A stretch of DNA of 35,389 nucleotides. It comes from Nitrospira sp. (lineage in GTDB: Bacteria > Nitrospirota > Thermodesulfovibrionia > Thermodesulfovibrionales > SM23-35). The stretch is from contig VGWX01000020.1 in the NCBI GenBank assembly GCA_016873615.1, forward strand, positions 1 through 35,389, in the 5' to 3' direction. The position numbers were made by a program, and so were the translations under genes. This document shows positions 11,872-16,723 of the stretch, piece by piece. Under the pieces are notes generated by a model. That model was not told where the DNA came from. It saw nothing but the letters and a program-made list of their open reading frames with translations, and searched no databases. Each line of letters opens with the position of its first letter. Position 1 is the stretch's first letter.

Positions 11872-13248
11872 TTATTTATGGTCTGAGTCTGTCTTTCCCT
11901 TTGAGAGGGTCTTTAGGTCGGCAAATATATCTTTTATATTCTGGTACCTGTCTTCCCTCACTTTCCTGAGGCAGCGTATAACAATTTCATCGAGCCATTC
12001 AGGCATATCTTCTACGCTGTCAATGACACCGGCTGAACCAAGACCCTCCAGGGTTCCGGTCAGCATCTCATATAGCATTACACCTGCGGAATAAATATCA
12101 GCCCTTTCATCCAGATCCACTTCCTTTAAAATTTCCGGAGGGATATAATCCGTGGATTGGGTCCTTTTCAGAAAAGATATGTTGTTCTGTGCATCAATCA
12201 CTATATTGTCCGGGCTTAAAAGACCAAAGGGCCAGCCGCTCTTATAGGCTTCCTGAAGGCTTTTCAGTATCTGAATCCAGAGCTTGAGACTGTATCTCGG
12301 CTCGATCCTTCCGCTCTGGATAAAGCTTCTCAAAGCAGTTTTCCCTTCAGGGATTTTCTCGTCCTGAGAAAGCGGCGTCAAAAGAGCTTTTAATTTGTCT
12401 TTCACATCTCTGAAGGCCGGATTAACCTTATCTATATCCTTGAGAACCTCGATCGCCTTCTGTGTATCGCCTGCTGCTTCAAGCAGTAATGCATAGGTAT
12501 GGAATTCCTCAAGTCTTGAGCTTTCCGGTTTCTTATTGTAAAGAAAGAAACCGAACATTTCTGCAGCCTCTTTCAGCATGCCTTCTTCTTTAAGTAGCAT
12601 AGCAGCCTGCTTATATTCTCCAGCCTCTCTCAACGCTTTTACCGCATAGATAGTTTTTCCTGACTGTTGCATAACTTTTGCTGCATCAATTTTCTTCCCT
12701 GCCTTTTCATAAAGGGTTGCAGCTTCATCAAACTCCCCTTCCGTCAGGGCAACCTCTGCAGCATCTTCAAGACTGCCGGCCTTTTCATACATCTCTTTGG
12801 CCTTACCGGACATCCCGAGGATGTTGTAGAGCAGGGCAGCCTGATTATAGTCGCGGCCTTTTTCATAGAACAAGGCGGCTTTGCGGGGGTCCTTCAGCTT
12901 CTTGTCATATACTCTGGCAGCCGAGACGAATTGCCCGGCCTTCTCGTATCCCTCGGCTTCTCTCCTGTAATCTTCGATTACCGTAGTTTTGAGTTTCTTC
13001 CCAATGGTTTGCCTGTAGATGAATCTGATAACAAAGAAAAGGGAAATAATAACAGGGATGAGAATAAGAAGAAAGATGGCAAAGAGCCCCTTTGATGCTT
13101 TTTCTTCAACTGAATCTCCAGAGGCAGCGACCTGAAGAATTGGAGTGTTTAAATATGTAACCAGAAGGTCAATAAATTTGATTGTGATTAAAGCATACCT
13201 CCCTGTGCCGTATATTATCATATTCTGAAAAAAGAAGGCCGGGAGCAT
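11872..13248 (-). CDS. Membrane-anchored helical-repeat protein with C-terminal pseudokinase domain
   Basis: The 458-residue product has one clear membrane helix at about 54-76, and the N-terminal 45 residues may be a second membrane-associated stretch. Residues 95-285 are TPR/SNAP-like helix pairs with recurring AA-LYEKAG words. Residues about 320-450 resemble the C-lobe of a Ser/Thr kinase: GLLSPDNIVID, YIPPEIL (the APE region), DERADIYSAGVMLYEMLTG and a C-terminal RCLRKVREDRYQN helix. The ATP-binding N-lobe is absent. The HRD segment reads FGL, with the catalytic Asp and following Lys lost, and no DFG is present, so it cannot be a normal kinase. It is probably a scaffold that binds partners through both modules. 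The start at 13248 is not strongly supported; the ATG at 13221 is an alternative. Confidence 0.85.
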   Translation of the reverse strand: MLPAFFFQNMIIYGTGRYALITIKFIDLLVTYLNTPILQVAASGDSVEEKASKGLFAIFLLILIPVIISLFFVIRFIYRQTIGKKLKTTVIEDYRREAEGYEKAGQFVSAARVYDKKLKDPRKAALFYEKGRDYNQAALLYNILGMSGKAKEMYEKAGSLEDAAEVALTEGEFDEAATLYEKAGKKIDAAKVMQQSGKTIYAVKALREAGEYKQAAMLLKEEGMLKEAAEMFGFFLYNKKPESSRLEEFHTYALLLEAAGDTQKAIEVLKDIDKVNPAFRDVKDKLKALLTPLSQDEKIPEGKTALRSFIQSGRIEPRYSLKLWIQILKSLQEAYKSGWPFGLLSPDNIVIDAQNNISFLKRTQSTDYIPPEILKEVDLDERADIYSAGVMLYEMLTGTLEGLGSAGVIDSVEDMPEWLDEIVIRCLRKVREDRYQNIKDIFADLKTLSKGKTDSDHK

Positions 13249-13409
13249 TATCAGGATCAGTTCTTATAGATAGGCATTGATATCCCGGATACGTCAGATG
13301 AAGTTTCTATTCAACACTTTAAGACACGCACAATTCTGAAAGGTAAGGGGCCTCTCGATTACGGGAATAAATATTTTCCTGTTTTTTAAATCCATGAAGT
13401 GGTATTGTA

Positions 13410-13415
13410 TATAAT
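13410..13415 (+). promoter_or_regulatory. Candidate -10 box for the RRM-rpsU operon
   Basis: TATAAT at 13410-13415, preceded by TTGTA, would start transcription near 13422 and leave a leader of about 70 nt before the RRM gene. No good -35 is visible. The remaining bases 13249-13400 show nothing I recognise. Confidence 0.35.
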
Positions 13416-13490
13416 CCTGCCTTTGAAGTCAGAGAAGCCTCAAAACTTTAAGGCGTTAGGGAATTTTATTCTATCAAGAGGGGTTAAGTT

Positions 13491-13823
13491 ATGGGCAAGA
13501 AACTGTATGTAGGAAGTATTCCATTTAGTGCAACAGAGGAATCTCTCCGGGAGCTTTTCTCAGGCATTGGAGAGGTTGAATCAGTAAAAATAATTACTGA
13601 TGCAGACACAGGGCGTTCCAAGGGTTTTGGCTTTATTGAAATGTCATCTGCAGAAGATGCTAAAAAAGCCATAGAACAGTTAAACGGCACAAAATTTATG
13701 GAGCGTTCTTTGACCGTTAATGAGGCAAGACCGCAGCAGCCAAGGGAAGGACGAGGATTCGGCGGAGGCAGGGGAGGGTATGGACAGGGAAGAGGATCAG
13801 GCTATGGAAGAGACAGGAGATAA
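13491..13823 (+). CDS. RRM-domain RNA-binding protein with Gly/Arg-rich tail
   Basis: This is a single RNA-recognition motif protein of 110 residues. RNP2 is LYVGSI (5-10) and RNP1 is KGFGFIEM (44-51), the aromatic RNA-contacting surfaces. From residue about 86 the tail is rich in Gly, Arg and Gln (GRGFGGGRGGYGQGRG), as in cyanobacterial Rbp and other bacterial cold-responsive RRM proteins. The ATG has AGAGGGG upstream at good spacing. Six bases separate its stop from the bS21 start, with the bS21 Shine-Dalgarno sequence lying in its last codons. Translation of the two is therefore likely coupled. Its RNA targets cannot be read from sequence. Confidence 0.93.
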   Translation: MGKKLYVGSIPFSATEESLRELFSGIGEVESVKIITDADTGRSKGFGFIEMSSAEDAKKAIEQLNGTKFMERSLTVNEARPQQPREGRGFGGGRGGYGQGRGSGYGRDRR

Positions 13824-13829
13824 ATTATC

Positions 13830-14021
13830 ATAGAGATAAGAGTAGTCGGCAATGATATAGAAAAAGCTATTAAAATTCTGAAGCGCAAAGTTCAGACTGA
13901 AGGTCTGCTCAAAGAAATCAAAGCGAGAAGTTTCTATGAAAAACCTTCAGTAAAAGAAAAACGAAAACGCGCAGAGGCACGCAAGACAAGGGCGAAGGCT
14001 CAGAAGCATAGAAGATTCTGA
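13830..14021 (+). CDS. rpsU: 30S ribosomal protein bS21 with apparent ATA start
   Basis: Translation gives a 63-residue basic protein, MEIRVVGNDIEKAIKILKRK onward to KHRRF. It matches bS21 in length, in the V-GNDIEKA-K-LKRK opening, in the RSFYEKPS-KEKRK middle and in the Arg/Lys tail. No ATG, GTG or TTG exists in frame: the preceding in-frame codons are TAA (13821), ATT, ATC and ATA. AGGAG at 13815-13819 precedes these candidates, with 10 nt to ATA 13830 and 7 nt to ATC 13827. I chose ATA because family proteins begin Met-Glu-Ile or similar. bS21 helps 30S subunits engage mRNA, so control through a poor start codon would be meaningful. A sequencing error is the alternative, but the whole frame is intact. 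Confidence 0.88.
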   Translation: MEIRVVGNDIEKAIKILKRKVQTEGLLKEIKARSFYEKPSVKEKRKRAEARKTRAKAQKHRRF

Positions 14022-14155
14022 TAAGATTCTAATAAAAACCCCTTTTTTGTTAACATTTTGCAAAACTGCGGATATTGCCGCCTTCAGGGCCTATAGAAGG
14101 GGCTGTTCGGTGTTTCTACCCGCACAAAATATCAAGCTAAAAGGAGGAATAAACA

Positions 14156-14701
14156 ATAGCTAATCAAAGACGAGTATTGCCCGGCAGGGTCGCTGATCTT
14201 ACGCGCGTAAACAACCAGATCAGGCTGATTAAAGCCAAAGAGATACGAGTCATTGCCGATGAAGGGCAAATCGGCATCATGGATATTGAATCTGCATTGA
14301 AGTTGGCTGGGGAAAGAGATTTAGATCTTGTGGAAGTCAGCCCCGATGCTGATCCGCCGGTCTGTAAGATCATGGATTACCGGAAATTTAAGTTCGATAA
14401 TAGCAAGAAACTTCAGAAGGCCAGAAAAAAACAGGCGACGCAAACCCTCAAGGAAATCAGGCTGCGCCCGTTGATCGATACCCATGATTACGAGTTCAAG
14501 AAGCGGAATGCCCGGAAATTTATTGAGCATGGGGATAAGGTTAAGGTGACAATGCGTTTTAAAGGGCGAGAATTGGGTCGCCAGGAACTGGGGACAAAGG
14601 TTCTGAACAGGTTGGTGTTGGAACTGGCGGATATCGCAAAGGTGGAAATACAGCCTAAGATGGAAGGCCGCCAGATGGTAATGATTCTTATGGCTTTGTA
14701 G
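14156..14701 (+). CDS. infC: Translation initiation factor IF-3 with apparent ATA start
   Basis: IF-3 binds the 30S subunit, blocks premature 50S joining and rejects non-standard start codons. The frame contains VNNQIRLIKAKEIRVI, DLVEVSPDADPPVCKIMDY, KEIRLRPLIDTHDYEFK and GRQMVMILM, all characteristic. I chose ATA at 14156, which gives 181 residues (E. coli has 180) and lies 8 nt after a perfect AAGGAGG. The first TTG in frame (14177) is 29 nt from that site. infC in E. coli starts at AUU, which lets IF-3 repress its own translation, so an ATA start fits the same logic. Unusually, rpmI and rplT do not follow and thrS does not precede. The 134-bp gap before it (14022-14155) contains small stems such as CCTTC/GAAGG but no clear terminator. 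Confidence 0.92.
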   Translation: MANQRRVLPGRVADLTRVNNQIRLIKAKEIRVIADEGQIGIMDIESALKLAGERDLDLVEVSPDADPPVCKIMDYRKFKFDNSKKLQKARKKQATQTLKEIRLRPLIDTHDYEFKKRNARKFIEHGDKVKVTMRFKGRELGRQELGTKVLNRLVLELADIAKVEIQPKMEGRQMVMILMAL

Positions 14702-14771
14702 GTATTCAGAAAGTCTTTGAAGTCGAGCGCCTGCCTTTCTTCCCCTAACCTTATTGGCTGTTCGCTGCTTG

Positions 14772-14800
14772 TTGCCGAAAAATGACTTTTTGGCTATGAT
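14772..14800 (+). promoter_or_regulatory. Promoter of the lytic transglycosylase gene
   Basis: TTGCCG at 14772-14777 and TATGAT at 14795-14800 are separated by 17 bp. The transglycosylase ATG begins 7 bases after the end of the -10 box, so the predicted transcript starts at or next to the start codon. No Shine-Dalgarno sequence is present. Confidence 0.55.
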
Positions 14801-14806
14801 AATTTT

Positions 14807-16723
14807 ATGAAGCGATTTTTATTCCTCATATTGTTTATTACTTCCTGCCTGCCGGTTTACAGTGGAGATCTGGACGGCAAGGAGTATCTAAAGAAGGGTA
14901 AATATGAACTTGATAAAGCGAAATATGAGGACGCTATTTTAAGTCTGTCTGCTGCAGCAAAAGAATATCCTTTACTGGCTGATTATGCACTGTTGTGGCT
15001 TTCTGATGCTTATCATGAAAATGGAAATCATGAAGAGTCACTGAATACTCTCCGCAGCCTCATCAAGAAGTATCCGCGTTCACCATTGGTTAAGAAAGCC
15101 CGTTCAAGAGAGCTTAAAGAGGCGGTTGAACTGTCTCAGGAAAATATCCAGAAGCTGTTTGAATCTTATGTTAAGGATTATTCCGGTGATACAGAGATTA
15201 AGTATATGTATGCACAGTGGCTTCAGAATAATGACCGGAAAGACAGGGCAAAAACGATCTTCAGGGATATATATATAGAAGCGGGTCCTTTTGCTAAAAT
15301 GGCATACAGTCAGTTAAGCGCTTCTGATATAAGTCCGGATGATATGATCCAACGCGCATCAAACCTCATGGATGAAATGGATTTCAGAGGCGCGGAATCT
15401 GCACTGAGATCAGCAATGCCGGAAGATGACGGAAGATTAAAAACCAAAGTCCTGAAGGTCCTTGGCCTTGCGCTTTTTAAGCAAAAAAAATATCGCGAGG
15501 CTGCTGAGGTCTATAAAAAGGTTAATGAAAGGTATTGGGAACTCCGTTCCCTGTATCGTGCAGGCGAGAGAGAGACAGTGTCTACTGCCATAAATGAACT
15601 CCTGGAGAGCAATGACAAAAGGATGGCATCTATACTGATCACTGTCGCATCGGACAAAAGGAGGGATGGCGCTGTTGACGAGGCTGTGCGTCTCTATGAG
15701 AATGTAATTGAACATTATCCTGCTGACAAGGAAGCTGCGCTCTGGGGAATTGGATGGACATATTTTCTGGCAGGAGAATACAAAAAGGCGTCCGATATAT
15801 TTTCAAGGTTAAACAGTGCGTTCAGCAGTCCAAAATACCTTTATTGGAAGGCCCGCAGCCTTGAAAAGGCAGGGGAGGATTCAGAGAAGATATATACGGC
15901 TATAATCGAGAAAGACTCGGATATATACAGTTTCATGTCTTACATAAGATTGAAAGGATCTCCTGATCAATCCAGGACAATAAAGCATATAAAACCTGTT
16001 ACAGGAACCCCTGTTATTTCAAAGAAGATAAACCGTATAGAGGCGCTCTCTGATCTTGGGTTCCCGAAAGAGGCTATTTCAGAACTGATCCAGATCTCAA
16101 AAAATACAGAATCCATGGAAGATATCCTCTATATCTGTTCAAAACTGCAGGAACTGGGTGAATACAAACACCTTGTAAGACTTGCCCTTAAAGTTCCGTA
16201 CAGGGAAGAAATTCACCGTTTCCTGTATCCTTACGCATACAGAGAAACTATTGAATATCTCTCAAAGAAGTATAACCTTGATCCGCTTTTGGCGCTTTCA
16301 GTAATAAGGGAAGAGAGCAGGTATGATCCGGATGCACGGTCTGTTGCCGGCGCTCTCGGGCTTATGCAATTAATGCCACAAACAGCCTATCGGCTTGATA
16401 ATAGGCTGGGATTAGAGATTGATGGTTCGCAGGACATTTTGAAGGTAAAAAACAATCTCCATGTCGGCATATATTACCTGAGCAGTCTCATTAAGGAGTT
16501 CGGGAGCTATGCCTATGCCATTGCAGCCTATAATGCCGGAGAGGAAACAGTTAGAAAATGGCTGCAAAAAGGAAAATATAGATCGCCTGACGAATTCATT
16601 GAAGATATCCCATATGCAGAGACAAGGAACTATGTCAAGAGGGTCTTAAGCGCGTTCGTGGCATATAAACGCATCTCTGCCACAGGGGAAGGCATTGTAG
16701 AAATCCCTGTTGAAAAACTGTAG
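14807..16723 (+). CDS. Soluble lytic murein transglycosylase (Slt-type)
   Basis: This periplasmic enzyme cleaves the MurNAc-GlcNAc bond of peptidoglycan to leave 1,6-anhydro-MurNAc ends. A signal peptide is visible at 1-20 (MKRFLFLILFITSCLPVYSG), with a Cys at 14 that could be a poor lipobox. Residues about 25-440 are TPR-like helical repeats forming the doughnut scaffold seen in Slt70. The C-terminal SLT domain has LALSVIREESRYDPDA with the catalytic Glu near residue 503, then GALGLMQLMPQTA and AIAAYNAGEETV, all diagnostic. The C-terminal region YAETRNYVKRVL is also typical. It probably has its own promoter and stands 34 bp before the zapB frame opens. Confidence 0.94.
   Translation: MKRFLFLILFITSCLPVYSGDLDGKEYLKKGKYELDKAKYEDAILSLSAAAKEYPLLADYALLWLSDAYHENGNHEESLNTLRSLIKKYPRSPLVKKARSRELKEAVELSQENIQKLFESYVKDYSGDTEIKYMYAQWLQNNDRKDRAKTIFRDIYIEAGPFAKMAYSQLSASDISPDDMIQRASNLMDEMDFRGAESALRSAMPEDDGRLKTKVLKVLGLALFKQKKYREAAEVYKKVNERYWELRSLYRAGERETVSTAINELLESNDKRMASILITVASDKRRDGAVDEAVRLYENVIEHYPADKEAALWGIGWTYFLAGEYKKASDIFSRLNSAFSSPKYLYWKARSLEKAGEDSEKIYTAIIEKDSDIYSFMSYIRLKGSPDQSRTIKHIKPVTGTPVISKKINRIEALSDLGFPKEAISELIQISKNTESMEDILYICSKLQELGEYKHLVRLALKVPYREEIHRFLYPYAYRETIEYLSKKYNLDPLLALSVIREESRYDPDARSVAGALGLMQLMPQTAYRLDNRLGLEIDGSQDILKVKNNLHVGIYYLSSLIKEFGSYAYAIAAYNAGEETVRKWLQKGKYRSPDEFIEDIPYAETRNYVKRVLSAFVAYKRISATGEGIVEIPVEKL

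Follow-up and report, generated by a model that had tools for sequence, protein, structure and literature searches.

A conserved bS21 paralog gene without a canonical start codon, next to a second IF3 gene, in Thermodesulfovibrionales

How would a ribosomal protein gene be translated if its reading frame offers none of the usual start codons? This question is raised by rpsU2, which lies in a 35,389-nucleotide stretch of Nitrospira sp. DNA, the whole of which is referred to here as the window (Table 1). The rpsU2 frame, 13830-14021, matches Pfam Ribosomal_S21 (PF01165) with 65.7 bits (curated cutoff, 27), and its product also matches solved bS21 chains (5nd8, E. coli, and others). The initial annotation, made from the letters of the window, had described an intact bS21 frame opening after an in-frame stop at 13821, behind an AGGAG ribosome site, with only ATT, ATC, and ATA available as starts. 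This description was borne out. The start region reads GAC AGG AGA, then TAA (13821), ATT (13824), ATC (13827), and ATA (13830), followed by GAG ATA AGA GTA GTC, and the window sequence contains no ATG, GTG, or TTG in this frame from the TAA to the conserved residues. As had been predicted for simple gene callers, an open reading frame lister restricted to ATG, GTG, and TTG starts lost the gene and listed nothing of ≥40 amino acids (aa) in its frame.

Table 1. Features of the rpsU2 locus in window coordinates
Feature	Position	Strand	Description and basis
RRM RNA-binding protein gene, first gene of the cluster	13491..13823	+	110 aa; ATG start; Pfam RRM_1, 89.3 bits
Shine-Dalgarno (SD) AGGAG of rpsU2	13815..13819	+	10 nt upstream of ATA
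ATT ATC, in-frame alternative noncanonical start candidates	13824..13829	+	AGGAG spacing of 4 and 7 nt
rpsU2, bS21 paralog	13830..14021	+	63 codons; inferred start ATA 13830-13832, stop TGA 14019-14021; Pfam S21, paralog alignment, pN/pS
SD AGGAGG of infC2	14142..14147	+	8 nt upstream of ATA; sequence
infC2, second IF3 gene	14156..14701	+	181 aa; inferred start ATA GCT AAT CAA; Pfam IF3_N and IF3_C, relatives

Comparison of the window's rpsU2 with each of seven other intact copies (59 codons) gave pN/pS values of 0.10 to 0.19, indicating purifying selection and thus that the encoded protein is maintained. From these comparisons, rpsU2 is predicted to be functional and to encode a second bS21. 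The source genome (2.9 Mb, 216 contigs) encodes three rpsU genes: rpsU2, a housekeeping rpsU1 that starts with ATG (MPYVRVRESDS...), and a second RRM-linked rpsU that starts with TTG (MEIKVNGNDVEK...). The initial annotation had held that another complete copy elsewhere in the genome would speak against its claim. Two are present, so the window copy is a paralog rather than the sole bS21; its role changes accordingly, and the observation about its start codon is unaffected. Housekeeping rpsU1 genes start with ATG in all 13 of 13 cases.

Start codons in relatives

We searched relatives order- and class-wide (176 and 230 genomes, respectively) and found intact rpsU2 in eight species-level genomes: the window's own, six from the same family, and one from a different family within the order. 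The named public counterparts are metagenome-assembled genomes (MAGs) assigned to Nitrospirota/Thermodesulfovibrionales, and MAGs appear to be the only source of sequences for the clade. None of the eight has a canonical in-frame start after the upstream stop. At the start column, seven have ATA and one (G007) has ATC; in related, mostly RRM-linked rpsU paralogs, the same column holds TTG (56), GTG (6), or ATG (3). Every ATA or ATC copy is preceded by AGGAG at a spacing of 10 nt (9 nt in G007). In a maximum-likelihood tree, which is rough given its ∼65 protein columns, the eight copies with AUH (AUU/AUA/AUC) starts form one clade (100/94 support), whose sister has a TTG start. Conversion of TTG to ATA requires two single-base changes, and the route through ATG crosses the best start, so retention of ATA looks selected.

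Whether relatives carry ATG at this position was the check proposed at the outset; such relatives were looked for and none was found, a result that favors the finding. A miscalled or misassembled ATG is ruled out by the eight separately assembled species with a noncanonical start and by the purifying selection. The wider reading of rpsU2 as a pseudogene, or as an ATG-start gene altered by sequencing or assembly error, draws on the internal decay of the gene in G001 and G015, but with the identical state in all eight species, conservation of ATA, and selection this strong, we consider it barely credible.

The exact start is likely ATA 13830 rather than the neighboring ATT or ATC, judging from the alignment. 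This column is favored because it coincides with the TTG column of the paralogs and with their commonest SD spacing, as the modal AGGAG distance in TTG-start paralogs is also 10 nt. Codon −1 is ATT or ATC in seven species and ATA in G007; it is thus AUH in every species, so initiation could take place one codon upstream. A true start at ATT/ATC 13827, with all else as in the explanation preferred below, would have a 7-nt AGGAG spacing that is nearer the textbook optimum, and it would fit both the ATT/ATC found there in seven species and the AUU with which E. coli infC itself begins (PMC9410913). Another rpsU copy without a canonical start, in G051, likewise has ATT after AAGGAG-AAAGAT. We nevertheless regard a start at codon −1 as quite unlikely, since ATA is homologous with a TTG column that shares its 10-nt spacing and since many TTG paralogs also carry ATT or ATC at −1, immediately ahead of their actual start. 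Third-base conservation of ATA was rejected as proof of the exact start; adjacent Ile codons vary about as little.

Upstream gene, gene order, and the two IF3 genes

The stop codon of the RRM gene (TAA, 13821-13823) lies 6 nt ahead of the rpsU2 ATA, and translational coupling between the two genes had been suggested in the initial annotation. If bS21-2 were made by termination-reinitiation or stop readthrough from the RRM gene, the identity of the start codon would be nearly irrelevant, and the position of the RRM stop, in the same frame in six of eight genomes, would suit such a mechanism. However, the RRM gene and its TAA are missing upstream of rpsU2 in G007 and G151, where the extended open frame contains no canonical start over 53 and 21 codons, respectively, and the AUH start is retained. 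Neither coupling nor readthrough is therefore required, and we rejected them as a necessary general mechanism. TTG paralogs at equal spacing from an RRM gene also retain a real start codon. An out-of-frame ATG mini-ORF of nine codons (window 13804-13833) ends in TAG and overlaps the inferred ATA, and it terminates on ATA in several relatives as well, which could favor reinitiation, but its ATG is missing from G010 and G007, and a conserved start-overlapping mini-ORF was rejected. Taken together, production of bS21-2 from RRM translation seems very unlikely.

The order RRM-rpsU2-infC2 occurs in G000, G010, G013, and G014 and seems to be ancestral. It also occurs in G001 (L088) and G015 (L086), where rpsU2 has decayed through an internal deletion and a frameshift and the flanking RRM and infC2 genes are intact. 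In G008 and G017, infC2 has a different location, and rpsU2 is followed by a short remnant similar to the beginning of infC2; G007 retains rpsU2 without a close infC2. Loss of rpsU2 with infC2 kept, and rpsU2 without a nearby infC2, indicate that the pair is not obligatory.

In the window, infC2 is the next gene after rpsU2. Its product has IF3_N and IF3_C domains (95.2 and 119.4 bits) and matches solved bacterial IF3 chains. Among the 176 genomes of the order, 26 carry this gene (27 rows in the script output, as one genome was represented twice); it starts with ATA in 22, ATC in 3, and ATG in 1. The sole canonical codon near the N terminus is a TTG at codon 8; the ORF lister begins infC2 there, at 14177, which is seven codons late and leaves ATA as the only plausible start. 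In G151, this TTG is replaced by CCG and the ATA is kept. The housekeeping infC1 of the window's genome, ahead of rpmI-rplT (L148, G000:C132:1-4000), begins ATA AGC behind AGGAGGTGA, and infC1 starts with ATA or ATC behind GGAGGT at each of the 22 loci that were examined across the order. Several of the arginines of the E. coli IF3 C domain are retained in IF3-2; the corresponding residues of IF3-1 are K, F, or N. The duplicate may be a more E. coli-like discriminator than IF3-1.

Three genes with AUH starts were found (infC1, infC2, and rpsU2), and all of their products are 30S-initiation proteins. Essentially all of the ∼35 long frames in the window, picked mechanically, have ATG, GTG, or TTG near a plausible N terminus, with the exception of rpsU2 and infC2, so a genome-wide habit of ATA starts is unsupported among the window's frames. 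A special AUA-reading initiator tRNA was also set aside: among the tRNAs found in this fragmented assembly, where the usual Ile-GAT was likewise not seen, there were three CAT tRNAs and none with a UAU anticodon. No stable RNA fold was detected at the rpsU2 start (z = 0.73), and Rfam gave no match in window 13000-14900 at E ≤ 1.

Proposed control by IF3

E. coli IF3 rejects the AUU start of its own gene, resulting in self-limiting feedback (PMC9410913, citing Butler 1986 and Sacerdot 1996). In S. aureus, ribosome profiling identified an AUA start for infC and noncanonical starts for two other conserved genes, ccpN (AUA) and cvfC1 (AUU); such starts gave ∼10% of AUG reporter output, with ccpN reaching up to 30% in rich medium (PMC13009471). 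The best explanation of the present locus, to which we assign a probability of roughly 65%, is that rpsU2 is translated from AUA or AUC, with its output keyed to IF3 as for infC1 and infC2. The initiator tRNA would read AUA 13830, or AUC at the equivalent site in one species, to yield an ordinary formyl-Met bS21. As a poor start that IF3 rejects, AUA would cause rpsU2 output to drop as free IF3 rises, as in infC feedback. Points against this explanation are the nonobligatory pairing of rpsU2 with infC2, the AUH codon at −1, and the departure of IF3-1 from E. coli IF3 at several arginines.

The initial annotation had proposed start-codon discrimination by IF3 as a plausible link, and the ATA starts of the adjoining infC2 and the distant infC1 strengthen this proposal. 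Because both IF3 genes of the same genome share the start type of rpsU2, the supply of bS21 is probably tied to the IF3 level; we infer both the role of IF3 as sensor and the physiological purpose. Under such control, the start codon would define a small regulon of infC1, infC2, and rpsU2. A shortage of IF3 in relation to 30S subunits would allow all three products to be made, and an ample supply of IF3 would throttle them. Recruitment of rpsU2 to infC-type feedback would have occurred by a shift from TTG to AUH in a lineage where rpsU2 preceded infC2. More tentatively, and at somewhat less than even odds, AUH may serve as a shared key through which the IF3 level jointly sets IF3-1, IF3-2, and the bS21 paralog, with rpsU2-infC2 acting as an alternative initiation module.

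A simpler possibility is that the non-AUG start merely holds output of the paralog constitutively low, with no sensing role for IF3 and only a coincidental resemblance to the ATA of infC. The related paralogs already use weak TTG or GTG starts, from which ATA could be one further step down, and the starts of S. aureus citZ (AUA) and cvfC1 (AUU) lower output in a way that depends little, if at all, on the growth medium (PMC13009471). Yet TTG would have sufficed for a low level, AUH is the class of starts that IF3 rejects, and the AUH clade sits in an operon with infC2, itself AUH started. Based on these observations, we judge purely constitutive control to be unlikely.

Comparison with known systems

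IF3-sensitive non-AUG starts have been described in only a few genes, foremost that of IF3 itself. As in infC, rpsU2 has an AUH start behind an SD and a product that acts at 30S initiation; the start is conserved without a canonical alternative in eight of eight genomes, and the SD lies at a working distance. It differs in being a ribosomal protein paralog, so control by IF3 would act in trans rather than as self-feedback. E. coli pcnB (AUU) and S. aureus/B. subtilis ccpN (AUA) and cvfC1 (AUU) also combine a conserved AUU or AUA with an SD and lowered initiation (PMC9410913, PMC13009471), but they are not ribosomal protein genes and do not share an operon with an IF3 gene. In a literature search of limited range, we found no report of an IF3-sensitive non-AUG start in a ribosomal protein gene; rpsU2 would extend this known type of control to a duplicated ribosomal protein gene that is linked to a duplicate IF3 gene.

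Pairs of genes for an RRM protein (Rbp) and rpsU, with reported cold regulation, occur in cyanobacteria, and these also place the RRM gene directly upstream of rpsU; we know of no infC or AUA start associated with them. Flavobacterium rpsU is subject to initiation-level feedback via bS21-lacking ribosomes and has an exceptionally strong SD (PMC9976891). Output governed at translation initiation is the likeness that we propose for rpsU2. The Flavobacterium system depends on that very strong SD and on anti-SD release in SD-blind ribosomes, whereas rpsU2 has only AGGAG and its oddity is the start codon. By inspection, complementarity in rpsU2 is confined to the five-base AGGAG core, short of the extended SD of < −13 kcal/mol that characterizes the Flavobacterium type.

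The conserved rpsU2 beside an AUH-start infC2 suggests that a change of start codon alone can bring further genes under IF3 feedback and that IF3 supply can be tied to ribosome composition. If AUH does act as a shared key, IF3, the inspector of start codons, would control the makeup of the initiating 30S subunit. The gene also exemplifies a class of real genes that are lost to ATG/GTG/TTG callers. Among the relatives, G051 (L021, ∼1480-1680) carries another rpsU paralog without a canonical start, reading AAGGAG-AAAGAT-ATT ACA AAC ATT AAA, and this single MAG possibly presents an independent AUU start.
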